A stretch of DNA of 64,000 nucleotides from the NCBI GenBank assembly GCA_016200045.1, contig JACQFN010000008.1, forward strand, positions 62,001-126,000. Reading direction: 5' to 3'. Of the stretch, positions 1 through 40,023 are shown in pieces; position 1 is the stretch's first letter; each line of letters opens with the position of its first letter. The translations under genes were made by a program, and so were the position numbers. A model generated the notes under the pieces. The model had not been told where the DNA came from, searched no databases, and was given only the letters and a program-made list of their open reading frames with translations. This DNA comes from Nitrososphaerota archaeon. Lineage in GTDB: Archaea; Thermoproteota; Nitrososphaeria; Nitrososphaerales; Gagatemarchaeaceae.

Positions 1-58
1 GGGCTTTGCCACCAGTTTGGGCCTGTCGTAAGATGAAAACAGGATAAGACCAACAGTA

Positions 59-535
59 ATGGAGATAAGCAGACATGCGGTCCCAACAAGAAACTGGTGG
101 ATAAGGCACGGCATGAAGACTTCAGGGTGGTTCGCCGTCATGGCTGTCATCGGCCTGACGGTCTTGACTGGGGCGTACTCGTATTACTCCCAGTCGGTTC
201 CGTCAGACTCTTTTGGATGCAGCTCACCTCAGGGCTATCTTACCATCGTCTCAGATGCGTCGGGATACAATGATAGTATAAACCAACCCCTGCCCTGGCC
301 GGTTATTACGGTTCAGAGGGGCAGCGTTGTGAACCTCTTCGTTTGCAACAACGACGGTTCTTCTGCCCACGGATTTGCCATCGACCACTACCTGGTTTCC
401 GGAGCCGCAATTGCTCCGGGGAGAAACTTCAGGGTGTCATTCGTAGCAGACCAAGCGGGGAACTTCACCATTTATTGTAACATCTTTTGCCCCGTCCACA
501 AGTTCATGGTCGGACGACTTGTTGTGAGTCCCTGA
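59..535 (+). CDS. Membrane-anchored cupredoxin with atypical CuA-like site
   Basis: A 158-residue protein with one N-terminal membrane segment (about residues 22-43) followed by a single cupredoxin domain facing outside. Copper ligands visible are His104 (in SAHGFAI) and the C-terminal cluster CNIFCPVHKFM with Cys140, Cys144, His147 and Met150. The two cysteines three residues apart are the mark of a binuclear CuA centre, but His follows after two residues instead of the usual three, so the site is one residue short of the oxidase and N2O-reductase consensus. It lies directly before the oxidase genes, so a role in electron delivery to, or copper loading of, the oxidase is an inference. A second possible start is the ATG at 113. 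Confidence 0.8.
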   Translation: MEISRHAVPTRNWWIRHGMKTSGWFAVMAVIGLTVLTGAYSYYSQSVPSDSFGCSSPQGYLTIVSDASGYNDSINQPLPWPVITVQRGSVVNLFVCNNDGSSAHGFAIDHYLVSGAAIAPGRNFRVSFVADQAGNFTIYCNIFCPVHKFMVGRLVVSP

Positions 536-29918: not shown

Positions 29919-30509
29919 CTATTTCGGACAGGGACACAACAAGTTGGCGATGTAATTGTTCCCGTTTGTGGTTCGCAAATCGAAGACCACGAAGTCCCCC
30001 GTGAGGACCTGCAGGCTCGTTATCGTCACCCAGGATTTTGACGCAGGTTCGTACAGTTGCATCCCGACCTTGAGTTGGCCGATGTCAATGTTCCTTTGGG
30101 TGCCGTTTTGCATCCTAGCATAGATCAGTTGCTCACCCAAACCACTGATGCGAAGCGTGCCGTTATTGATGTCCAAGACTTTGTGGACCAGTAGAGCCTT
30201 GTTGCTGGCAACGGTGGTCGTGGACAATGATCCGGTCCTCGTGTTGTAAGAAAGCACATGGTCCCCCGCCTTCAGGTTCTGCACAGGCGCCTGAGTACCG
30301 TTGGCAAGGGTGATCAGGGTCCCGTTCAGGACACAACCGCCACCGCCACCGCCCCCACTGTTTGAATAGAAGTAGGCTGTGATTGTTCCAGGTCCCTTTA
30401 TCGTTGCCGTGGTCCCCGAGCTTTGTGGGTTTGCAAAGGTAATCAAACTGGTGCTAGAACCCCAAGAAGAGAACGTGTAACCACTGGCTTGCGTGGCTGA
30501 AATCCACAC
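29919..30509 (-). CDS. Surface protein, C-terminal part with Hint domain
   Basis: This frame continues the protein at 30443-32143. After a beta-rich repeat (GSNIWYGAGSAVWISATQASGYTF) and a run of seven glycines comes a Hint (hedgehog/intein) fold: it begins with the nucleophile Cys in GCVLNGTLITLANG, followed by VQNLKAGDHVLSYN, and ends FDLRTTNGNNYIAN. The block-B TxxH motif is not seen and there is no C-extein, since only six residues follow NYIAN. Autocleavage as in hedgehog proteins, giving a modified N-terminal part, is possible but not assured. The first residues in this frame shadow the upstream one; the true join is near 30560. Confidence 0.7.
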   Translation of the reverse strand: MWISATQASGYTFSSWGSSTSLITFANPQSSGTTATIKGPGTITAYFYSNSGGGGGGGCVLNGTLITLANGTQAPVQNLKAGDHVLSYNTRTGSLSTTTVASNKALLVHKVLDINNGTLRISGLGEQLIYARMQNGTQRNIDIGQLKVGMQLYEPASKSWVTITSLQVLTGDFVVFDLRTTNGNNYIANLLCPCPK

Positions 30510-32143
30510 TGCTGACCCGGCCCCATACCAGATGTTACTTCCAGAGGGCGAAGAGTTGACCCGCTGCCCGCTGGGCTAACAGCGTACGAGACCTGATAGC
30601 TCGAGGTCACCAGTTTGGCTCCCATCAGAGGAACATGGCCACTTAGTCCGTTGGAAAGCGAATAATAAGCCGTCCCCACTGATGCGTCGAAGTCAGTCTT
30701 TGTCCTCAGTGGGCTGTCGAATCCTACTGACGCTCGAGTATCCGAAACTGATGTGCTTGTTAATCCCCCGGCGAGAGACAGGGCCATCCAAGCCGGGATT
30801 GCTAAGCCACCTGAAGCCCAAGACAAGATTGCGCCGATGTCAATCCCAACATTGATCCATTGTGTGTTTGACTGTGCGTAGGTGCCCACTAAACTGTCAC
30901 TCTGGACATAATTCAGAGGCCCGGACAAGGGATTTCCCTGCCCCGTTACGGTTTCATACATGACAGACGGATAATACGATTGGACGTTACTTATCCACGG
31001 AGGCAGTCCGGTTTGGGACCCCCCCTGGACTGTGCCCCCGCTAGTGAGCACATTGACGACCCCGACGTCATATTGTTGGTTTCCTGTATCACTGTTTATT
31101 ACACAAAAGGCCTCACAAAAGTATTCTTCGAACTCCTCGCCTTCAACTTGGCCCAAGAAATAGATGTAGGTTGAACCAATGGTGCCTGGGGATATCCCGG
31201 ACGACCAGATTCCACCTGAAGTCACCGTGTTGGACCATGACGCACTCCCGGCCTGATAGGTAATTTGATTCTGTGAAGCGCTGCTGAGTTGAGCTCCAGT
31301 GACAAGTCCCACATTTAGCGAAGATGTGCTACTGGAAGTTATTGATTCGGCCAATGTTCCATAGGCGAGACTCCCTGATGGGACAGTAAGCCAGACAGTC
31401 CCCACCTTTCCGCACGTGGTGGTGCTGGTGCATGTGCTAGGGTATACGACATCCGTGGTTGTTATGGGTTTCCAGTAATAGCAAAAGAGGTAGGTCTGAG
31501 TGCATGGAAAGGCAGCACAGTCGCCTGTGCAAGGCGTAGGTAAACTGTTGCTGTTTGCGTGAGGACTCCAAGTGTTCGATTCTGACGCCGATGTCTCGCT
31601 AGTTGACCAACTTCCAATCGCTCCAGAAGAAGCTTCAATCGGTAAATTCAGATTCCTAGAAAGGTCAAGCCTACCAAATGCTCTTGCCAGCTTATTTGAA
31701 GTGCCATCGAGAGCCGTCAGGGGAACGGAAGTTTGGTTAAAGTGTTGTCCCGTCGAGTCGACGTAAGTTAGGAATATGAGAATGTTTGGATGACTGTAGG
31801 CATATTCGGCGCCTTTGACCTCCTTCCAAGAGTCAGCGAGGTGGCGCGCTACCGTCAGGTTCGAGAATGTTGCCTGACCACTCCTATTGGTTATTGCCGA
31901 AAACACTTGAGTGAACCCGTAACCCTCAGATTGAGGGGCCGGAACAAAGCCTTGGGCGGTGACATCGGCCAAGGGGGATTGATGCTGATCTGTCACTTGC
32001 AGACTGATACCTACGACGGAGCCTGGAGGTGGTTGGCCCTGATTGGACCAATTGGTGAAGACGGAATTCGGTACGCCCGTCTGGAACAAAAGAAGAAGAG
32101 CCGCAACAACGAAGAGTTTATTCGACCCGTCTGCCGAACTCAC
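30443..32143 (-). CDS. Surface protein, N-terminal part
   Basis: About 520 residues of secreted, Ser/Thr/Gly-rich sequence after an N-terminal hydrophobic segment (residues 8-22). It includes an Ig-like or carboxypeptidase-regulatory-like segment (GISLQVTDQHQSPLADVT), several cysteine pairs (PCTGDCAAFPCTQTYLFC) and a hydrophobic stretch (IGAILSWASGGLAIPAWMAL). The family is unknown. Sense is lost after YAVSPAGSG at about 30560, where adding one base to the run of three C restores the frame at 29919-30509, so the two form one gene of about 720 residues. Confidence 0.65.
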   Translation of the reverse strand: MSSADGSNKLFVVAALLLLFQTGVPNSVFTNWSNQGQPPPGSVVGISLQVTDQHQSPLADVTAQGFVPAPQSEGYGFTQVFSAITNRSGQATFSNLTVARHLADSWKEVKGAEYAYSHPNILIFLTYVDSTGQHFNQTSVPLTALDGTSNKLARAFGRLDLSRNLNLPIEASSGAIGSWSTSETSASESNTWSPHANSNSLPTPCTGDCAAFPCTQTYLFCYYWKPITTTDVVYPSTCTSTTTCGKVGTVWLTVPSGSLAYGTLAESITSSSTSSLNVGLVTGAQLSSASQNQITYQAGSASWSNTVTSGGIWSSGISPGTIGSTYIYFLGQVEGEEFEEYFCEAFCVINSDTGNQQYDVGVVNVLTSGGTVQGGSQTGLPPWISNVQSYYPSVMYETVTGQGNPLSGPLNYVQSDSLVGTYAQSNTQWINVGIDIGAILSWASGGLAIPAWMALSLAGGLTSTSVSDTRASVGFDSPLRTKTDFDASVGTAYYSLSNGLSGHVPLMGAKLVTSSYQVSYAVSPAGSGSTLRPLEVTSGMGPGQQCGFQPRKPVVTRSLLGVLAPV

Positions 32144-32178
32144 GACTTCACATGATAATTTCCTCTCATATTTAGTGC

Positions 32179-33513
32179 TTATCCAAGACTCTTTCCATTG
32201 ACACCGTAGAGGGTAGACCCATCAGAGAACACGAGGAACTCGCTGGCAACTCCCAGCGCATAATAGCCCGGTAATGACGGATCGGTCCATGGTGGTGACA
32301 CCCAAGGTCGGTACTGTCTGTACCATCCTGCGCGACCGTCCGTCGCATTCACGATCGCAAAGGCACCGCTGTACAGAGTACCACTCGAATAATACAGATG
32401 GCTGTTGTCCTCCTCCAGAAATACCCAGCCATCAGACAATGGGATCAAGGAGATTGCATTGATTGACGACTCGTTCTGAACTAAGAAGGACCAAAGGGGA
32501 CTTCCGTCTTTGGAATAGGCGACAACTCCAACATTGTTTGAGACCATTAGCTTGTCCTGGATTACACTGACCACGTCTGCCGAACCAAACGTCTGCACGA
32601 CGGCATGGGCACTGAAATTGGTCACAAGCTCTCGGTCTGTCAGCCTTACCCCGTATACTCTGGGGTAATTCATCGTTCTTTCGAGGTAGTAAAAGGTTCT
32701 GTTCATGAAGGGAGAGCTAAGTGAGAGAATTGAACAACAGCTTTCAGGCACCCCACTCCCCGGCAAGAAGCCTTCGTACCCAATAGTCCCGTTTGTCATT
32801 AGCTCGACCAAGTAGATCCTTGATTGGTCAGACACTGCCAAAGTGAGCCCTTGCGAATCCGCCTGCAATCCAGGTTCGAAGTTGGCCCAGCCATTCTTCC
32901 CCGGGACCAAGATGGACCTCTCCCAAGCACGTGATCCGTCAATCATTGAAACAGATTCTACGGATAGGACTGTGGAGTTTGCCGGTTGCCCGGAATAGGC
33001 GACCCCGCCCAGAAATAGTGTTCCTCGAAAGCTAGTCGCGAATATGCTGAAAGCAAACCCCCCCGGGATGGGTTCGGTGAAGGTCGAGACCACCCTCCCA
33101 ATCCGTGCATCAAGAGTGGTTGTCCGCAATTCAGAAAGGCTTCCGTTTTGAGTATAGCCTACGAAATGAATCATGCCATCATCATAAAACAGGTTCGTAT
33201 AGAGCGAACAGAGGCCAGACGTATGGATAGAATCCGATGACCACAGCAGAGAGCCGTTCGGTGCCCCTATGGCTACGATTTGATAGGTGCAGTTGCTTTG
33301 ACCAACCGAAACAGGAGTCAAGGACCTGAGGGAGTATACGACTCCGTGCCCCACTAAAGTCTTCAGCTGCACTTGGCCCTTCGGGAGTCGTACCTCCCAG
33401 GCAACTGGGAAGGGAGGAGCTCTCGAATTGATTAACGCGAAGTACGATTCAAGAGGAACTACGATTGTAACTCCCAAGACCAGAGCTAACACAAGAAGGG
33501 TCCGTTTCTTCAT
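32179..33513 (-). CDS. Secreted PQQ-like beta-propeller protein
   Basis: A 444-residue protein with an N-terminal signal or anchor (residues 5-27) and repeats of about 50-60 residues containing GSLLW, GSRAW and DGSPLWSF-type turns, as in PQQ-dehydrogenase-like propellers. No quinone or metal ligands typical of the enzymes stand out, so a structural or binding role at the cell surface is more likely. It ends 35 bases before the surface protein gene begins on the same strand (order on the minus strand: this gene, then the Hint protein). Confidence 0.7.
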   Translation of the reverse strand: MKKRTLLVLALVLGVTIVVPLESYFALINSRAPPFPVAWEVRLPKGQVQLKTLVGHGVVYSLRSLTPVSVGQSNCTYQIVAIGAPNGSLLWSSDSIHTSGLCSLYTNLFYDDGMIHFVGYTQNGSLSELRTTTLDARIGRVVSTFTEPIPGGFAFSIFATSFRGTLFLGGVAYSGQPANSTVLSVESVSMIDGSRAWERSILVPGKNGWANFEPGLQADSQGLTLAVSDQSRIYLVELMTNGTIGYEGFLPGSGVPESCCSILSLSSPFMNRTFYYLERTMNYPRVYGVRLTDRELVTNFSAHAVVQTFGSADVVSVIQDKLMVSNNVGVVAYSKDGSPLWSFLVQNESSINAISLIPLSDGWVFLEEDNSHLYYSSGTLYSGAFAIVNATDGRAGWYRQYRPWVSPPWTDPSLPGYYALGVASEFLVFSDGSTLYGVNGKSLG

Positions 33514-33996
33514 CCGTTCGAATTAATGCCCTCCTTCGTGAAGTGCAATCAAGAACGATTCAACTCTTAGGCGTTCTACTGTAGATTCTTCATTCAAAGT
33601 CCTTTCTTCCTCTTATCCAGTCGAGTCCTCAGGCGACCGTATGAAAGCTTTCTCTCTAAAGACTCAGCATCTGGGATCTTGTAATCCTTCGTGACTAATA
33701 TTCCGCCACGTATGCCGCATCCGTCATGTTCTCATTCATGACCAGAAGTCGGGTTAGAGTGAACATGCGTTCACCCTCATTCCTGAGTCCTCTGCCAGAG
33801 CGATGGCCGAGGATACCTCAAGCTGGTGGAACGAACGATAGCCGAGGCTTACACCCAAATCCTAAAAATCAAATCCTTTACTTTCTAGAAAGCCATGAAG
33901 GGAACCAGTGAGGTCCTTGCGTCCTGATCCCGGGCGAGATTTCGACGAGGTGGTGGAATGCCCCCCAATGCCATGTCCCAGGTTCGGAACCGGTGG

Positions 33997-34066
33997 GACC
34001 CGGTTGGAAGACCGTGTCAGAGGTGGATTTGAATCTAGGTGATCCCAGTTTGAAAACCGTGCTAGA
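33997..34066 (-). repeat. tRNA-like and direct-repeat region, copy C
   Basis: Two imperfect direct repeats of about 26 bases (33997-34022 and 34041-34066; shared core GAAxACCGTG) flank a segment that on the minus strand reads as a tRNA T arm with loop TTCAAAT (CCTAGATTCAAATCCACC). A second tRNA-tail-like piece, GGGTCCCACCGG, lies at 33985-34000. The block starts about 75 bases after the PIN gene stop. The rest of the 628-base gap 33514-34141 has no gene I can support. Confidence 0.5.
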
Positions 34067-34141
34067 TTTCGGTCCAAACCCCAAGAGGTTTGGGACACCG
34101 CGATGGGTAAAAGGTTCAAACCTTCATCACATCGAGCTTCT

Positions 34142-34519
34142 TCATACCACGTATTCCACGCCGCTCAGACCCCGGAAAGTCTTGTCTCCTGTCAGGAATC
34201 TAATCGCCAACTTTCGAGAGAGGAAGTATCCGAGGGCGTCAGCGTAGGAAATATTGCGACCTGCCCGCTTGAGTTCTAGTCTGGTCTTCATAGAACCGGC
34301 TATGTCCTCCAGCCCGAAGTCGATGAGGTACTTGGAGAACGTGTCCAAGATGTCGGACGCTGCCTTGGAGTCGAACTGCTCCAGAGACCGATAGAATACT
34401 TCTAGCAGGTTGAGTTTCGTCAGGACGCCGTCGTTCTTCTCGAAATACTCTTTGTAGGCTTGGTTACCGCTTGTGAACGCTAGAACCGCGTAGCTGTCGT
34501 AGAAGAAGCGAGCTGGCAT
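34142..34519 (-). CDS. PIN-domain toxin (VapC-like)
   Basis: A 125-residue PIN-fold ribonuclease with the four acidic positions of the family: Asp8 (FYDSYA), Glu40 (NLLEVFY), Asp94 (SYADALGY) and Asp112 (LTGDKTF). These bind Mg2+ and cut RNA, in VapC proteins usually tRNA. It starts directly after the AbrB-type gene (no gap), the standard antitoxin-toxin order. The pair is in accessory DNA next to repeats, so it may stabilise an integrated region. Confidence 0.9.
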   Translation of the reverse strand: MPARFFYDSYAVLAFTSGNQAYKEYFEKNDGVLTKLNLLEVFYRSLEQFDSKAASDILDTFSKYLIDFGLEDIAGSMKTRLELKRAGRNISYADALGYFLSRKLAIRFLTGDKTFRGLSGVEYVV

Positions 34520-34726
34520 TCAGCGCCAGTCCTTCCTCATGGCGTCTTTCTGAGATTGCAGGTCCTTGAACGGGTATCTTCCGAAGAGGCGTTCTATCTC
34601 CACGGCCTTCCTTACCGATATCTCGACGATCTCGCCCTCCCTCAGCCCTTCTTTCTCGACGATTTCTTTAGGGACGACTACGCCATAGGAGTTTCCCCAC
34701 TTCTTCAGCTTGGATTTGGCCTGCAT
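34520..34726 (-). CDS. AbrB-type antitoxin
   Basis: A 68-residue protein. Residues 1-45 form an AbrB/MazE swapped-hairpin DNA-binding domain (KLKKWGNSYGVVVPKEIVEK and EGEIVEISVRK), and the C-terminal arm (LFGRYPFKDLQSQKDAMRKD) would wrap the PIN toxin. It is expected to repress its own promoter; a perfect palindrome lies one base ahead of its ATG. Confidence 0.88.
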   Translation of the reverse strand: MQAKSKLKKWGNSYGVVVPKEIVEKEGLREGEIVEISVRKAVEIERLFGRYPFKDLQSQKDAMRKDWR

Positions 34727-34727
34727 G

Positions 34728-34743
34728 GTTATACATGTATAAC
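34728..34743 (-). promoter_or_regulatory. 16-base perfect palindrome, likely antitoxin operator
   Basis: GTTATACATGTATAAC is a perfect inverted repeat ending one base before the antitoxin ATG. An AT-rich box, ATTTATTA on the minus strand at about 34753-34760, lies some 27-34 bases from the start codon, so the palindrome covers the predicted transcription start. Binding of the AbrB dimer there would block initiation. The operator role is inferred from position. Confidence 0.65.
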
Positions 34744-34977
34744 TTCCTGCTAATAAATCTTCTAGTGAAGCTCACAATCTTGCGGTCGCCGGGACGACCG
34801 AACTACATGTAGGTCGGAAATTCTGCCCAATCAAGGTTCTTTTTCGTTCGGAGCCGCAGTCTCTAAAACCCTGCATGTAGTGTGGGAGGTAGGACCAAGA
34901 GTATCAAGAAGAGCAAAAAGGAACCTTTCTCCGCTTAAATAACGGCCGGTTAACGCGACCGGCTCGACGCCTCTAAC

Positions 34978-35460
34978 ATGCAAGGCTCCTCCTCTGAGGT
35001 CGCTCCAAACTCTCCCGTGGCTAAAACAAAGAAACCAAGGGCCCGATTGATCGCCATGGGCTTGGGCATTGTTGAAGGAGGGTACTTCGGTTTCTATCAC
35101 GGATACAACGAAGCGGTACAGGGAAGCGTTGCAACACCAGCTCCTCTTGTCCCATTCTGTGCAGTCCAGCCCCCGGGAAACTGTTCTCCTGCAATCTCAC
35201 TGATGCCCACATTCTTCCTTGCTGGTAGTATTACGATTCTAATTACCATCGCATTCTTGGCTTGGTTGGTGTTGTTTTTCTGGAGGGCTCCCACAACCTC
35301 TCTGAGGGCTCCGTTGGTCCTCTTTCTCTTTTCGGTGGTCTTACTGCTTTCCGGAGGGGGTGGCCTTGGGCCCGTTCTGGGATGGATTGGCTCAGCAGTT
35401 GCGACCCGTGGAGCTATACTTGCAAGACGAGCGGAGCCTTCTGTCCAATCAAGCTCGTAA
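34978..35460 (+). CDS. Membrane protein of unknown function
   Basis: A 160-residue protein with a basic N terminus and membrane segments at about residues 25-42 (weak), 77-98 and 108-135. The external loop contains two cysteines (PFCAVQPPGNCSP). No family recognised. A TATA-like TTAAATAAC at 34936-34944 lies about 35 bases upstream, which supports transcription. Confidence 0.55.
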   Translation: MQGSSSEVAPNSPVAKTKKPRARLIAMGLGIVEGGYFGFYHGYNEAVQGSVATPAPLVPFCAVQPPGNCSPAISLMPTFFLAGSITILITIAFLAWLVLFFWRAPTTSLRAPLVLFLFSVVLLLSGGGGLGPVLGWIGSAVATRGAILARRAEPSVQSSS

Positions 35461-35690
35461 GGTCGCGTGCGCGAACCAAACAGCGGCGCCATGCCCTTTC
35501 TTGGGAATCCGTTATTAGGCCCCTTTCAGAAGTGGGTCGAAGTCTCCTGATTTTGACGACGTTTCTCATGTAGATTCCTATGCGGACCCTGGGACTTCCA
35601 CCCGAGTTTCTCCCAAGAAAGCTGCCAAAATGGAAATGGCTAGATTTGCGGCTCTATTGATGAGCAGAGGTCAAATTGGGGTATTACTAG

Positions 35691-35737
35691 GCGGGCCCGG
35701 TGGGGTCCGCCCCTAAGCAGGTCCGGAAAGTGGATCC
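35691..35737 (-). repeat. 47-base tRNA-tail-like repeat, copy D
   Basis: This is the same as copy E (36584-36630) at 42 of 47 positions by hand alignment. On the minus strand it ends CCCACCGGGCCCGC, exactly the acceptor end also present at 44828-44841 beside the integrase. The other half carries GGTCCGGAAAGTGGAT on the plus strand, shared with copy H. It starts 93 bases after the stop of the small secreted protein gene at 35830. The remaining bases of 35461-35829 hold no gene. Confidence 0.75.
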
Positions 35738-35829
35738 TAAAACAAGCTTGAGTCAACCTTGTCCTTGATTCACTCCTCTTTGGCATCCTAGGATATCGTC
35801 TCTTAATCCGAAATGGGGTTCCTTCGCGG

Positions 35830-36210
35830 TTATTCTGTGCCGAGAGTGATGTTCGCGCATGGCGAACCGCACTGGTTGACCACGTGGAATACGGTGTCGA
35901 TTGCAGGCTCTGTGGTGACCCATTTGGTGTGGTTTGTTAGGATGAGCACTACTGTGAGGTTATGAGACTGAAAGAGACAAGTGACATGGCCTCCGAGTAC
36001 TGCTGTGACTGCTACATTCCACTGAACTTGTTTGCCTGAGGCTGAAGAGAAGCAAGATCCGTCTCCGGTCCCACTACTCGTGCTTTTGGATTGCCCAGAT
36101 GCGCCCAACCATGACCCAAGGAATACAAAGCCCATTGCACCGACTACGACCACGATGGTCACCAGCAGAGCAACGGCCGTTCTTCCTATTGCTCTGCGCC
36201 TCGTTAACAT
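35830..36210 (-). CDS. Small secreted or membrane-anchored protein
   Basis: A 126-residue protein with an N-terminal membrane anchor (residues 12-34) and an extracellular beta-rich part with four cysteines, likely two disulfides. No family recognised. It is one of several single-gene units coding secreted proteins that are followed by a tRNA-tail-like repeat. Confidence 0.55.
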   Translation of the reverse strand: MLTRRRAIGRTAVALLVTIVVVVGAMGFVFLGSWLGASGQSKSTSSGTGDGSCFSSASGKQVQWNVAVTAVLGGHVTCLFQSHNLTVVLILTNHTKWVTTEPAIDTVFHVVNQCGSPCANITLGTE

Positions 36211-36583
36211 GTAGTACCTGTGTTTGGAATGGCTTCTTGCGATTAGTACTTTGTCCGAACGGGATATGCTGTCCTCTGCATGTCAGTACCTTGTAACGTG
36301 AGAATGTCTGGTTCTAACGTTCAGAAGGTTTGTTCTATGCGCTACAATTTGACACTTCTCGAAGAGGGTGATGAGGTTGTCCGCCTTCAAGGCTCGGTCC
36401 TGTCGTTGTGCCTTGGGGATATGTGACTGACATGCAAATTCTGCGTGTTTTCCCGGTTTGGAATGGTCCAACTCCAGGGCTTTGAAAAGTTGATTTCATG
36501 GTAGGAAGGACGTGGATCAATGACAATAGGTGTTCTATCTTGATAGCTCATTGCCTGTAGGCGTGCCTGTCTTTTGAGAGCAA
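36211..36583. other. Non-coding interval
   Basis: I see no supportable gene here. Short frames on both strands lack promoters and protein-like composition. It separates the small secreted protein gene from repeat copy E. Confidence 0.4.
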
Positions 36584-36630
36584 GCGGGCCCGGTGGGGTC
36601 CGCCCCCAAACAGGTCCGAATAGTGGATTC
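36584..36630 (-). repeat. 47-base tRNA-tail-like repeat, copy E
   Basis: This is the partner of copy D with 5 differences in 47. Two direct copies of GGTCCG lie 17 bases apart within it. It starts 67 bases after the stop of the kelch-protein gene fragment at 36697. Confidence 0.75.
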
Positions 36631-36696
36631 TCGGCATTCTAAATGCTAGGTATCAGAACCAGCTGCCAAGCCGCTGGCAACGCCCAAAGACAGAGA

Positions 36697-36966
36697 TTAG
36701 GAATTGACTTTACCCGAGGGCTCTCCCTTCGAGAGTGGCATCGGCGCCTGCCTCGTCCATCGCTTGAGGAGTAAGGCAATCACGACCGCCACGACTACCA
36801 GGGCAGGAATCAAGATCCAAAGGAGTGGAGGCGAAGTGGTTGTCGTGGAGGAGGAAGATGCGGTCGATGTCTCGGAGGTGGTTGCAGTCGTAGAGGCAGC
36901 CGCTTGGTATCTGAAAGACGTAAGCTCGGCCGTGCCCACGAACCCTGTATCGACCGTTGTCCTCAC
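36697..36966 (-). CDS. C-terminal anchor part of the kelch-like surface protein
   Basis: Eighty-nine residues: a beta-strand-rich start (RTTVDTGFVGTAELTSFRYQ), a Ser/Thr-rich stalk of about 25 residues, one membrane helix (LLWILIPALVVVAVVIALLL) and a basic tail, the standard end of an archaeal surface protein. It starts over the stop of the kelch frame (ATGA). One base change near 36970-36985 would fuse AAEVA directly to PVRVRTTVDTGF, so this is probably the lost C terminus of that protein and not a separate gene. Coupled re-initiation is the alternative. Confidence 0.65.
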   Translation of the reverse strand: MRTTVDTGFVGTAELTSFRYQAAASTTATTSETSTASSSSTTTTSPPLLWILIPALVVVAVVIALLLKRWTRQAPMPLSKGEPSGKVNS

Positions 36967-38732
36967 ACGTACAGGAGCGCCACCTCTGCAGCCCAGAAGC
37001 TTTGTGTTTGGCTCGAACTACCCATAGGATATTCCAAGTAAGTCTGGGCGAGAAGACCTCCATCGTAAGAATAGAAGCTGGTCAAGAAGGAGCCACTTCC
37101 AGTCTCTGCAACGCCATTGTAAGTCAAGACTCCATTGAATGTGAGAGTTTTCAGAACGGGAAGCGTCGTGAAGTTGCCGGCGGCAACGGTAATGGATTCT
37201 GGGCTTTCAACCATGAATCGCACGCAGGCTGGCTGTGTGTAGTTCTCGGCCGAATTGTATCGCACCGCAACGACAGTCGCCGATTCCCATGAATCTCCGG
37301 CCGTTAGCGGCCATCGCATTTGTTGGGGTGGACTGTAAGTTTCCGCGGCAATAAGTTGAAACCCGGAAAAGTTGAAACCAAGCGTGGACTTTACAACAGA
37401 GAGGTCCGATTTCTGCTGCCATCCGTCACCCAACAAGGTGACTGTAGTGCCCTCGATTGTCAGGTTGTACAATAGTTTCAGCCTGTATGTCTCGTAGCTG
37501 TTCCCGTTTACCGCAATCGTGTCGGTTCCCACGACCTCGATTCTGCTTGTACCGGAACCGTCATGTGAGGGTCCGCCAGTCGTGTCAGGCAGGGTGACGC
37601 TAAACGAGTATTCCCAGAAGTCTCCCACGGTCCATTGAGGCACATTTGAGGCCGCTTGCGTTGATGCCTCTTTGCACGCCGCGGTAGCCGATGTTGTGGT
37701 TTCTGATGAGAACGGCACTATCTGGGCATAGTAGACAACATCTGTGCTGCCGTTATCAGCACTTCCTCCGACACAATAGATGTAACCAGATAATAATACA
37801 CATGACTGGTAGCGTATGTTAGTAAGATAACCGGTAGTGCTGGTCCATGATGATACCCCCGATGACGAAAGGGAGGCGTAGTAGACAGCATTCGTAAGAG
37901 TGTAAGCATTTTCACTATTGTATCCTCCTACGCAGTAGATGTATCCACCTGATGCTACGCACGACTGAGCGTCAATGGTAATAGGGTAGGCGGTAGTGCT
38001 GGTCCACGTTGACACTCCAGATGATGAAAGCTGAGCATAGTAGACGGAATCCAAGTAACCTGTACCAGAATATCCTCCTACGCAGTAGATGTATCCACCT
38101 GATGCTACGCACGACTGGCCGACTTCAGTACTTGGATAGTCAGTAGTGCTAGTCCATGATCCTACTCCAGAGGATGAAATAGGGGCGTAATAGACTGAAT
38201 TTGTGTAGTTCTTACCATTGTAGCCCCCGACGCAGTAGATGTATCCAGATGATATTACACAAGACTGACCGGATACAGTACTTGGATAGCTGGTCGTGGT
38301 GGTCCATGATGACACTCCAGAGGATGAAAGGGAGCCATAATAGCTAGTGTTTATTGTTGATGAACTGCCTTGCCCTGTAACAAATTCTCCTCCGACGCAG
38401 TAGATGTATCCACTTGACGCCGCACATGACAGGCTGGATAGGGCAGTAGGATAGCCGGTAGTGCTGGTCCATGATGGCACTCCAGAGGATGAAAGTGAAG
38501 AGTAGTAGACAGCGTTTGTGGCGTTGGCTTCAGTAGCTCCTCCGACACAGTAGATGTATCCAGATGATACCACGCATGACTGAGCGTATATGTTGGTTGG
38601 ATACTTAGCCGCGGACCCCCACGAGCCAACAGACTCGGCACTGACTGGCTGAAGAGGTACGAATGAAGTAAATACAAGAGTTATCGTAGCCAGAATGAGT
38701 GTAGTCGCAATCCTACTTGCAACAGTCTTCAA
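36963..38732 (-). CDS. Kelch-like repeat surface protein
   Basis: A 589-residue protein: signal peptide (to about residue 32), then six tandem repeats of about 50-58 residues, each with QSCV-SSGYIYCVGG and VYYA-LSSSGV-SWTSTT-YP. The YCVGG turn and six-blade count suggest a kelch-type propeller with one disulfide per blade. After residue 350 comes a separate domain (VPQWTVGDFWEYSFSVTLPD onward). The DNA repeats are very alike, with identical runs of more than 40 bases between 37922-37964 and 38075-38117, pointing to recent repeat expansion or exchange. Confidence 0.8.
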   Translation of the reverse strand: MKTVASRIATTLILATITLVFTSFVPLQPVSAESVGSWGSAAKYPTNIYAQSCVVSSGYIYCVGGATEANATNAVYYSSLSSSGVPSWTSTTGYPTALSSLSCAASSGYIYCVGGEFVTGQGSSSTINTSYYGSLSSSGVSSWTTTTSYPSTVSGQSCVISSGYIYCVGGYNGKNYTNSVYYAPISSSGVGSWTSTTDYPSTEVGQSCVASGGYIYCVGGYSGTGYLDSVYYAQLSSSGVSTWTSTTAYPITIDAQSCVASGGYIYCVGGYNSENAYTLTNAVYYASLSSSGVSSWTSTTGYLTNIRYQSCVLLSGYIYCVGGSADNGSTDVVYYAQIVPFSSETTTSATAACKEASTQAASNVPQWTVGDFWEYSFSVTLPDTTGGPSHDGSGTSRIEVVGTDTIAVNGNSYETYRLKLLYNLTIEGTTVTLLGDGWQQKSDLSVVKSTLGFNFSGFQLIAAETYSPPQQMRWPLTAGDSWESATVVAVRYNSAENYTQPACVRFMVESPESITVAAGNFTTLPVLKTLTFNGVLTYNGVAETGSGSFLTSFYSYDGGLLAQTYLEYPMGSSSQTQSFWAAEVALLYV

Positions 38733-38835
38733 GTTCCTTCTTCGAAGGTCGCCTTGATTATATATCCTTGGTAGACCGTGGCATTCTTAGGATAAGAGCA
38801 GACGCTCATGCCTCCTACATGAGGTATCGGATTCC

Positions 38836-38881
38836 GCGGCCTGGAGGGGTCCGCCCCCAAGTGGATTCAATTAGTGGATTC
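38836..38881 (-). repeat. tRNA-tail-like repeat, copy F
   Basis: A diverged member of the D/E family: GGGGTCCGCCCCCAA and TTAGTGGATTC are kept, while the GGGCCCGG core has changed. It lies upstream of the kelch gene and of the gene at 39154, so unlike the others it does not follow a minus-strand stop. The rest of the gap 38733-39144 contains only a TATA-like CTTTTAAGC at 39121-39129 for the next gene. Confidence 0.6.
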
Positions 38882-39153
38882 TGGATAGTCAACGCGAATG
38901 GAAATTCCGGCGACCGCATACTTTGAACACGATATGTTAGGTTGGAACCTAACCACCCCTAAAGCCGTCTTGTGAGCTGAAGACTCGGTGTTTGGTTGGG
39001 TCTCCAAAATAGCCCAATACGATTACGTTCCGTTTGATGCTTCACCCATTAGACTTACACCGTACTCGAGAACGGAATCTGGAATGACAAGGACGGCCGA
39101 AGGGGAGGGTCCTGCCAAGTCCTTTTAAGCTGCGGTAAATCCACATGTTTCAA

Positions 39154-39789
39154 ATGAGTTTGTTTGGCAAGAAGATAGTTGGCCTGGAGCCGCTATGCAG
39201 TTATTATCAGAGCCTCGGCATCGATGCCGCCATACTCCCAGAAGATAGCCCCGAAAATATTGTGGAGCACGGGGTTTTCAAGCATGACAACGGCTACATT
39301 AAGGTAAAAGGCCGGAACTTTGACCTCGTCACGATGCGGATGAGCATAAGGGGTATTGGGGGGAGTGGTGTGAGCATGGGAGGGGTTCCCCTCGCCTCCA
39401 AAACCAAGATACCATTCGAATATCACCACATCGTAAGAAGGGACCCATCAGCAAACGAGGGGTCGTTCAAGGCGAAGCTTGAGAAGAAGACCAAGGGGCT
39501 AATCAGCAAGGAGATAGTGGATGTAGCTTGGGAAGGGGGTCATCTGGCAACTACGCTTGACGCCAATGCGGAGATGAAGAAGACTATCATGAACTTCGTT
39601 ACTCGAGAGGACGGCTTGAAGGTTGAACCCGATAGGGACAATAGATGTGTGAGGGTCATATTCACTAGGCCCTCGAAGATTGAAGCTGGCTTGCTGGAAG
39701 GGTTCAGGTTCGACAGATCCCTGCTGCCGGAGGGGGCAGTCGAGGTGATCGACAACATAGCAGAGACTTTGCGCCAGATTCCGGCATAG
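39154..39789 (+). CDS. Unknown cytoplasmic protein
   Basis: About 211 residues, soluble, with alternating strand and helix. Central glycine-rich MSIRGIGGSGVSMGGVPLAS is followed by KIPFEYHHIV. No family recognised. The TATA-like box at 39121-39129 predicts a transcript starting near 39150, which favours the ATG at 39154 over the one at 39145. It lies at the left edge of the integrated element and could be part of it. Confidence 0.55.
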   Translation: MSLFGKKIVGLEPLCSYYQSLGIDAAILPEDSPENIVEHGVFKHDNGYIKVKGRNFDLVTMRMSIRGIGGSGVSMGGVPLASKTKIPFEYHHIVRRDPSANEGSFKAKLEKKTKGLISKEIVDVAWEGGHLATTLDANAEMKKTIMNFVTREDGLKVEPDRDNRCVRVIFTRPSKIEAGLLEGFRFDRSLLPEGAVEVIDNIAETLRQIPA

Positions 39790-40023
39790 GGAGATTTGTT
39801 TGTCCTTAGAGCTTCCGACTTACGCCTAGCATTTTGGGTCAAACTCCCACCCCCCCCGCACATTAGTTTCACCCAACCCTTGCCAACTCGTTCAATGAAT
39901 GAAATTGATATGGTGAAAGCGCAGTCTTTCGGCGAAGAGGGGAAAAGAGGTTCGGGTGACTAACCAAGGCTGAAGTCCCGACGACCGCACAATTTCTTTT
40001 TCCGAAAGTCCTTACCAAGTGAC

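Follow-up and report, generated by a model that had tools for sequence, protein, structure and literature searches.

Hint chemistry outside inteins has mostly been described for animals and bacteria, and among the titles and abstract openings listed by literature searches, none described Hint domains on archaeal surface proteins. B-type BIL domains are described as carrying all intein motifs except the C-terminal one, and class 3 inteins as having a Cys in place of the Asp at block F position 4 (PMC7765530). Hedgehog proteins use only the first step (PMC7664689); a sterol recognition region follows their Hint domain, mutation of the TXXH motif compromises the first step, and Cys400 seems to pair with Cys258 (PMC4695875). 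PT-HINT domains are reported to sit just before a toxin domain (PMC3482391). Inteins that lack the block B His and still splice have been described (PMC7664689, PMC7765530). With Gly at residue -1, a model intein is reported to need this His for its N-S shift, whereas large or bulky residues at -1 compensate for the loss of the His (PMC6333167).

The window analysed here is a stretch of 64,000 nucleotides from a Nitrososphaerota archaeon (assembly GCA_016200045.1, contig JACQFN010000008.1, positions 62,001 to 126,000). On its minus strand, the frame running from 30572 to the stop codon at 29919-29921 translates as ...SNSGGGGGGGCVLNGTLITLANG...LRISGLGEQLIYAR...GDFVVFDLRTTNGNNYIANLLCPCPK* and encodes, in this order, a divergent InlB B-repeat domain, seven glycines, a Cys and 137 more residues ending NNYIANLLCPCPK (Table 1).

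Table 1. Features of the Hint locus, given in positions of the window.
Feature	Position	Strand	Basis or remark
Host surface protein ORF, 566 aa, N-terminal hydrophobic signal-like segment, no Pfam domain	30443..32143	-	
Zone of frame change between surface-protein frame and Hint frame	30555..30590	-	Hint frame opens at 30572
Divergent InlB B-repeat domain (Flg_new_2), between surface protein and Gly linker	30369..30527	-	PF18998, 27.5 bits, cut-off 23.6
Seven-glycine linker directly before Cys1	30336..30356	-	Translation
Hint domain, Cys1 to last residue, 138 aa	29922..30335	-	Translation, AlphaFold, PDB fold matches; stop at 29919-29921
Cys1 (TGT), model residue 6, opposite hedgehog 258 and RecA intein 1	30333..30335	-	VIA-align ranges start 6..258 and 6..1
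Block B equivalent LRISGLGEQLIYA, Gln at the His place, Ser (or Leu, by alignment) at the Thr place	30117..30155	-	Alignments
Block F Asp (D of VVFDLRT)	29979..29981	-	Invariant in 21/21 aligned domains
NNYIAN, block F end	29943..29960	-	Alignment with inteins (HNFMANCLVIHN) and viral Hint domains
LLCPCPK tail in the block G place, no His-Asn, two Cys	29922..29942	-	Translation

Pfam searches of the window gave no Hint model past its cut-off (best, Intein_splicing with 17.0 against 35.8 bits; Hint with 15.1 against 29.7 bits), such a cut-off being a criterion of the library and not of biology; the relatives likewise stayed below the cut-offs, and NCBIfam returned nothing useful for the window. 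The Hint assignment therefore relies on structure and on relatives. The AlphaFold model of the window domain, built from a ten-row alignment, reached a mean pLDDT of 82.3 and a pTM of 0.73. Foldseek searches of the PDB with this model returned 55 matches at E <= 0.001, and an intein, BIL or hedgehog domain was found in all 50 of those listed. Alignments with VIA-align gave a Z of 17.5 to BIL 6y75 (2.1 A over 133 residues), 16.7 to hedgehog 1at0 (2.1 A over 129 residues), 16.4 to RecA intein 2in8 (2.0 A over 125 residues) and 16.5 to BIL 2lwy. A Ser-type relative (L078) gave a better model (pLDDT 90.0, pTM 0.83), with Z of 18.9 (BIL2, 6y75), 17.6 (1at0) and 17.6 (RecA intein), and its Ser8 fell at the residue-1 place of hedgehog and of the RecA intein in VIA-align. 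Given these matches and the place of the window Cys opposite the hedgehog and intein nucleophiles, the window domain is, as modelled, a Hint fold. The proposal of the first-pass annotation that the Cys behind seven glycines opens a hedgehog/intein-like fold is thus borne out by the structure prediction which it had suggested as a check.

In the model, the block B equivalent comprises strands 67-70 and 75-79 and the loop between them. The fold had been proposed to end with NNYIAN and almost nothing after it; only a 7-residue tail does follow, and NNYIAN itself is the end of block F. The corresponding pattern in true inteins and viral Hint domains is HNF.ANG, with THNFMANCLVIHN as the counterpart in the intein L013, from a genome of the window's genus. 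Because of this correspondence to the end of block F, the reading of NNYIAN as a catalytic intein-type terminal Asn was rejected. Block G (V-H-N) is missing and the protein stops 7 residues past NNYIAN.

Genome searches covered the window's phylum. A collection of archaeal relatives, which had also been proposed as a check (for proteins with the variant block B), reached 27 loci in total, in soil Bathyarchaeia and two Nitrososphaeria genomes; 19 of these have intact Hint frames and 8 are broken or headless (the window copy, cut off from its host; L002, L093, L094, L099, L104 and L106; and the second copy of genome G908). A profile search of the Bathyarchaeia family f72 gave 23 places in 13 of 21 genomes, after two intein-type places (L095 and L096) had been dropped from the 25 listed, and 5 of the 23 are broken. 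Named records of this family are the soil Bathyarchaeota MAGs BA_21, BA_22, BA_23 and BA_25, their soil origin being taken from depth labels such as 40cm. L093, L094, L099, L104 and L106 are headless C-terminal Hint fragments of f72, some lying just behind a protein frame that ends earlier, and are perhaps scars of C-terminal swapping. G908, a further genome of the window's class, carries two Hint copies in tandem, of which the intact one shares 48% identity with the window domain.

Single-sequence searches were less productive. Among 400 genomes of the window's order, 13 gave a match at E 0.01; outside the window's own genome, the loci taken from them contained TxxH-like matches and resembled inteins, although L040 and a few more were unclear. 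A sample of 200 genomes of the phylum yielded the window's own genome only. No relative was found among viral contigs, nor among plasmids and phages (best E 0.06 and 0.006, respectively). Other queries gave no match (A1 and A5 against viral contigs, the L103 protein against plasmids) or weak matches only (L078 against phages, best E 0.01). Viral matches were rejected as clade members, having proved on inspection to be ordinary Hint or intein-like domains, and some of them were used as outgroup. Members of the clade may also exist in archaeal phyla beyond the one searched, such as the Thermoplasmatota. True inteins with TxxH are numerous in varied genes of the window's genus and order (L003, L004, L006, L007, L014, L016 and others).

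Residue counts were made on 21 alignable domains, namely 19 aligned members (mean pairwise identity 43%) and the two of G908; the fragments L093, L094, L099, L104, L106 and L002 were left out, L093 being kept in the tree. Position 1 is Ser in 17 domains and Cys in 4, and both residue -1 (Gly) and the block F Asp are identical in 21/21; one Bathyarchaeia family provides 18 of the 21 sequences, so that this conservation partly reflects shared descent. The block B His and the His-Asn ends were counted by eye on alignments. His occurs at the block B place in none of the 21 (Gln in 14, Met in 3, Leu in 2, Phe and Glu in 1 each), and the terminal His-Asn of block G is equally absent (0/21). The usual TxxH, which had not been seen in the window, is thus lacking throughout the clade. 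The partner of the block B Thr depends on the alignment, being L71 (window) or N (L078) with MAFFT and, with gaps, D or its neighbour with HMMER, and the His is missing either way. In the Ser clade, an Asp stands just before the block B loop in 17/17, and in the HMMER alignment this Asp stands opposite the Thr of block B. In 15 of the 19 members, a His occurs four residues ahead of the block F Asp; the window lacks it, and so it cannot be a general substitute for the block B His. The window also lacks the Gly that follows YIAN in 18 of the 19 members.

A FastTree phylogeny with six viral Hint domains as outgroup placed the archaeal domains in one clade (support 0.999), within which a Ser clade (0.998) and a clade of the window, G908 and L093 (0.949) were recovered. 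The first Cys is kept in both G908 copies, its loss in close homologues having been named as a point to check, and where another residue is found, in more distant relatives, it is only Ser, never a non-nucleophile. Ser is encoded by AGY in all 17 cases, a single base away from the Cys codons TGY, and both Cys codons examined are TGY, a pattern consistent with one Cys-Ser change. The G908 host (Cys1) is homologous to the host of the Bathyarchaeia locus L111 (Ser1) with E 2.7e-8; given this shared ectodomain, position 1 has changed only between two nucleophiles. dN/dS was 0.07-0.17 in the three of nine pairs with computable dS. Judging from these alignments and the tree, the window domain is a member of a distinct archaeal Hint clade on secreted-looking proteins, in which the nucleophile is kept and the block B His is lost.

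The same counts bear on the possibility that the domain is an intein or an A-type BIL, excising or cleaving at both ends. The fold would allow it, and three RHS hosts have sequence on both sides of the domain. The criteria of these classes gave the following results: the TxxH of class 1 inteins is absent, and the window protein, ending LLCPCPK*, has no terminal Asn, Gln or Asp with a C-extein nucleophile and no downstream extein; block F position 4 is Asp in 21/21 and not the Cys of class 3 inteins; and the conserved C-terminal His-Asn of A-type BILs occurs in 0/21. Moreover, 32 of 33 other loci from the same searches show a TxxH-like match, a figure obtained with a loose pattern over the whole frame, in which at least two matches are probably due to chance and some loci are the same place fetched twice. 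For the clade this reading was considered extremely improbable, and for the window copy it is contradicted by the window sequence.

The ORFs 29919-30509 and 30443-32143 overlap in different frames, with the switch near 30572, at the start of the InlB B-repeat domain. The window copy may thus be broken, as its frame is shifted against that of the host; the break itself may be real or may stem from an error in the assembly. A -1 slippery site was rejected as its cause after inspection by eye, which revealed no typical heptamer. The claim that the Hint domain ends a surface protein holds, with the correction that the frames of host and Hint differ.

Decay of a horizontally acquired window copy, a reading compatible with all others, was given roughly even odds. 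The frame is broken between host and Hint, the host surface protein has no relative among the 60 other genomes searched, and no true copy of host or Hint was found in these 60 relatives, 30 of them of the same genus; the nearest relatives belong to another family of its class and to another class. The gene sits on the margin of a region whose GC content (0.49-0.54 in 30-40 kb of the window) is lower than that of 25-29 kb (0.60-0.63). The same genome also holds a second, headless C-terminal half of the same Hint type (L002, G000:C10:70826-70996, plus strand), with no recognisable N-terminal half upstream in three forward frames. Against decay, the Hint frame is intact over 138 codons and retains Cys1, Gly -1 and the Asp of block F; an assembly error of a single base would account for the broken frame. 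The low-GC stretch (30000-40000) contains several secreted-looking proteins. A protein with Kelch repeats (PF24681, E 1.6e-43) is encoded at 36963-38732; its N-terminus bears a hydrophobic segment, and its gene includes a 150-base tandem repeat at 37921-38343.

Across the clade, a hydrophobic signal-like segment was detected within the first 85 residues in 11 of 18 host frames, and also in the window host; several of the other frames are cut or partial. The ectodomains vary (Ig-like or fibronectin-like, matrixin-type protease, PPC domain, BNR-like repeats, RHS repeats), and most relatives have a linker rich in Gly ahead of position 1. The types of Hint domain do not follow the types of host, as the domain of L087, inside an RHS protein, is nearest to that of L077, which lies at the C-terminus of its host. 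No membrane-like segment was found past the ectodomain in hosts with a C-terminal Hint domain, save a borderline one over the linker in L110. In L115, L120 and L122, the Hint domain lies inside an RHS-repeat region, with linkers on both sides and about 130 to 640 residues after it. The RHS-repeat host of L120 also has a match to an LHH-type nuclease, far downstream of the Hint domain. Comparison of neighbouring genes showed no widely recurring partner other than the Hint proteins themselves, and a neighbour gene as conserved partner was rejected on this ground. In G908, a gene for a protein of about 150 aa follows each tandem Hint copy (L142, 5617-6078 and 6943-7398, minus strand); the two proteins have an N-terminal hydrophobic segment and are 60% identical to each other, and the one tested had no Pfam match above cut-off. 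This small membrane-protein gene was rejected as a general companion, since among the window and the loci compared it was present only behind the G908 copies.

The preferred reading, to which a probability of about 0.5 was given, is that of a C-terminal autoprocessing module which performs only the first acyl-shift step, like a B-type BIL or the hedgehog Hint domain, with altered catalysis. The fixed nucleophile, Gly -1 and block F Asp, together with the missing blocks B and G, fit the first Hint step at most. After export, the horseshoe fold would present the bond between Gly and Cys (or Ser), where the flexible Gly-rich linker ends, to attack by the side chain of residue 1 in an N-S or N-O acyl shift. 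The resulting (thio)ester could be opened by water, an amine or another nucleophile at the cell surface; the Hint domain would be shed, and the poly-Gly C-terminus of the surface protein would be left either bare or newly attached. No second cleavage and no splicing would take place, because block G is gone. As the block B pair is replaced (T by D or S, H mostly by Q), activation would have to be supplied by the block F Asp, strain and other residues. Bond cutting, its activation and the acceptor are steps that we infer. Inteins that splice without the block B His provide a precedent for such altered catalysis. Counting against activity, residue -1 is always Gly and the block B Thr is lost along with the His. 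Ser, found at position 1 in most members, is a weaker nucleophile than Cys.

The main competitor, a somewhat less likely one, is a catalytically dead Hint domain, with an unreactive Cys or Ser at position 1, whose fold would persist at the C-terminus for a structural role, for anchoring or for binding a partner. The block B His and block G are missing from every domain counted, Gly at -1 is the very case in which the block B His is reported as essential (PMC6333167), and in three RHS hosts the domain is internal, flanked by linkers between repeats, a place that a folded spacer could equally well fill. Decay is frequent among the loci as well; with 8 of 27 broken, and 5 of 23 in f72, the module appears to be often dispensable. 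On the other hand, the block F Asp is invariant, and there is no known reason for a dead domain to hold a nucleophile at residue 1 and the preceding Gly in 21/21. Solved C1A inteins are folded, according to their PDB entry titles, so that residue 1 is not needed for the fold. The conserved nucleophile was weighed slightly above the loss of the block B His, and the active reading is therefore favoured over the dead module.

A more specific form of the active module, in which the block-B-less Hint domain would be a built-in transferase, was judged unlikely: (thio)esters of the Gly-rich tail would attach to the archaeal envelope, or close on an upstream Cys as a reactive thioester ring. If true, such a module would take the place of the C-terminal anchors that its host proteins do not show, and its catalysis would dispense with the block B His. 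A Cys lies 4-14 residues before position 1 in 13 of 18 hosts, against a background of 20% in the same proteins (naive P 2e-6, inflated by treating related hosts as independent; the window and the two G908 copies were left out). The window copy has no Cys in this place, but two in its tail.

That the surface protein is passed to a membrane lipid in the manner of hedgehog was regarded as very unlikely; the first-pass annotation had held a link to a lipid or another molecule to be conceivable. Such a transfer has in its favour the same fold with the nucleophile at the same place as in hedgehog, and secreted-looking hosts with no predicted C-terminal membrane segment, for which another form of surface attachment would be useful. 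However, proteins with a C-terminal Hint domain end no more than about a dozen residues past block F, with no extra lipid-recognition region, TxxH is absent, and no neighbour gene is conserved. In the window, nothing after the Hint domain could recognise a lipid and both TxxH residues that promote the acyl shift are gone, which speaks against that claim.

The clade is of more interest than the single window gene. If active, it would offer archaeal secreted proteins a route of self-processing, and a natural test of the acyl shift with no block B His and Gly at -1, a combination reported to fail in a model intein (PMC6333167). If dead, it would be a case of the Hint fold kept as a plain module, in which the persistence of a nucleophile at residue 1 would need explaining.

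Compared with known systems, the clade resembles PT-HINT in that its Hint domains occur on secreted RHS proteins, one of them (L120) with the nuclease match noted above; it differs in that the Hint domain is C-terminal, with nothing after it in the window, or lies inside the RHS-repeat region. Inteins of the Tko CDC21-1 type are likewise naturally active with no block B His (PMC7765530), but they splice and have a bulky Leu at -1 (PMC6333167). The profile search of the PDB also matched the Pho CDC21-1 intein 6rpq (E 4.9e-7), which reads TPTHP at block B. The hedgehog Hog domain (1at0) has in common with the clade the fold (Z 16.7 and 17.6), a nucleophile after Gly and a secreted host, whereas TxxH and the sterol recognition region are absent from the window and the clade. 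The second Cys of the window tail falls at about position 399 of 1at0, beside hedgehog Cys400 (extrapolated from model residue 137 opposite 1at0 395), a likeness to be taken as a lead only, since the pLDDT of the tail is below 50. Tetrahymena BUBL BIL2 (6y75, 6tmm) is the best structural match (Z 17.5 for the window, 18.9 for L078) and the best sequence-profile match in the PDB (E 2.6e-8); it reads NHRF at block B, where the archaeal clade has no His, and its entry title, C1A-N143A, implies an Asn at position 143 of the native domain. By analogy, the archaeal domains may work like a B-type BIL or the first step of hedgehog. With B-type BILs they share the Hint fold (2lwy, Z 16.5), a nucleophile at residue 1, the lack of a C-terminal motif and variable secreted hosts, and they differ from them in their archaeal hosts and in having also lost the block B His (21/21), blocks A and F being kept.
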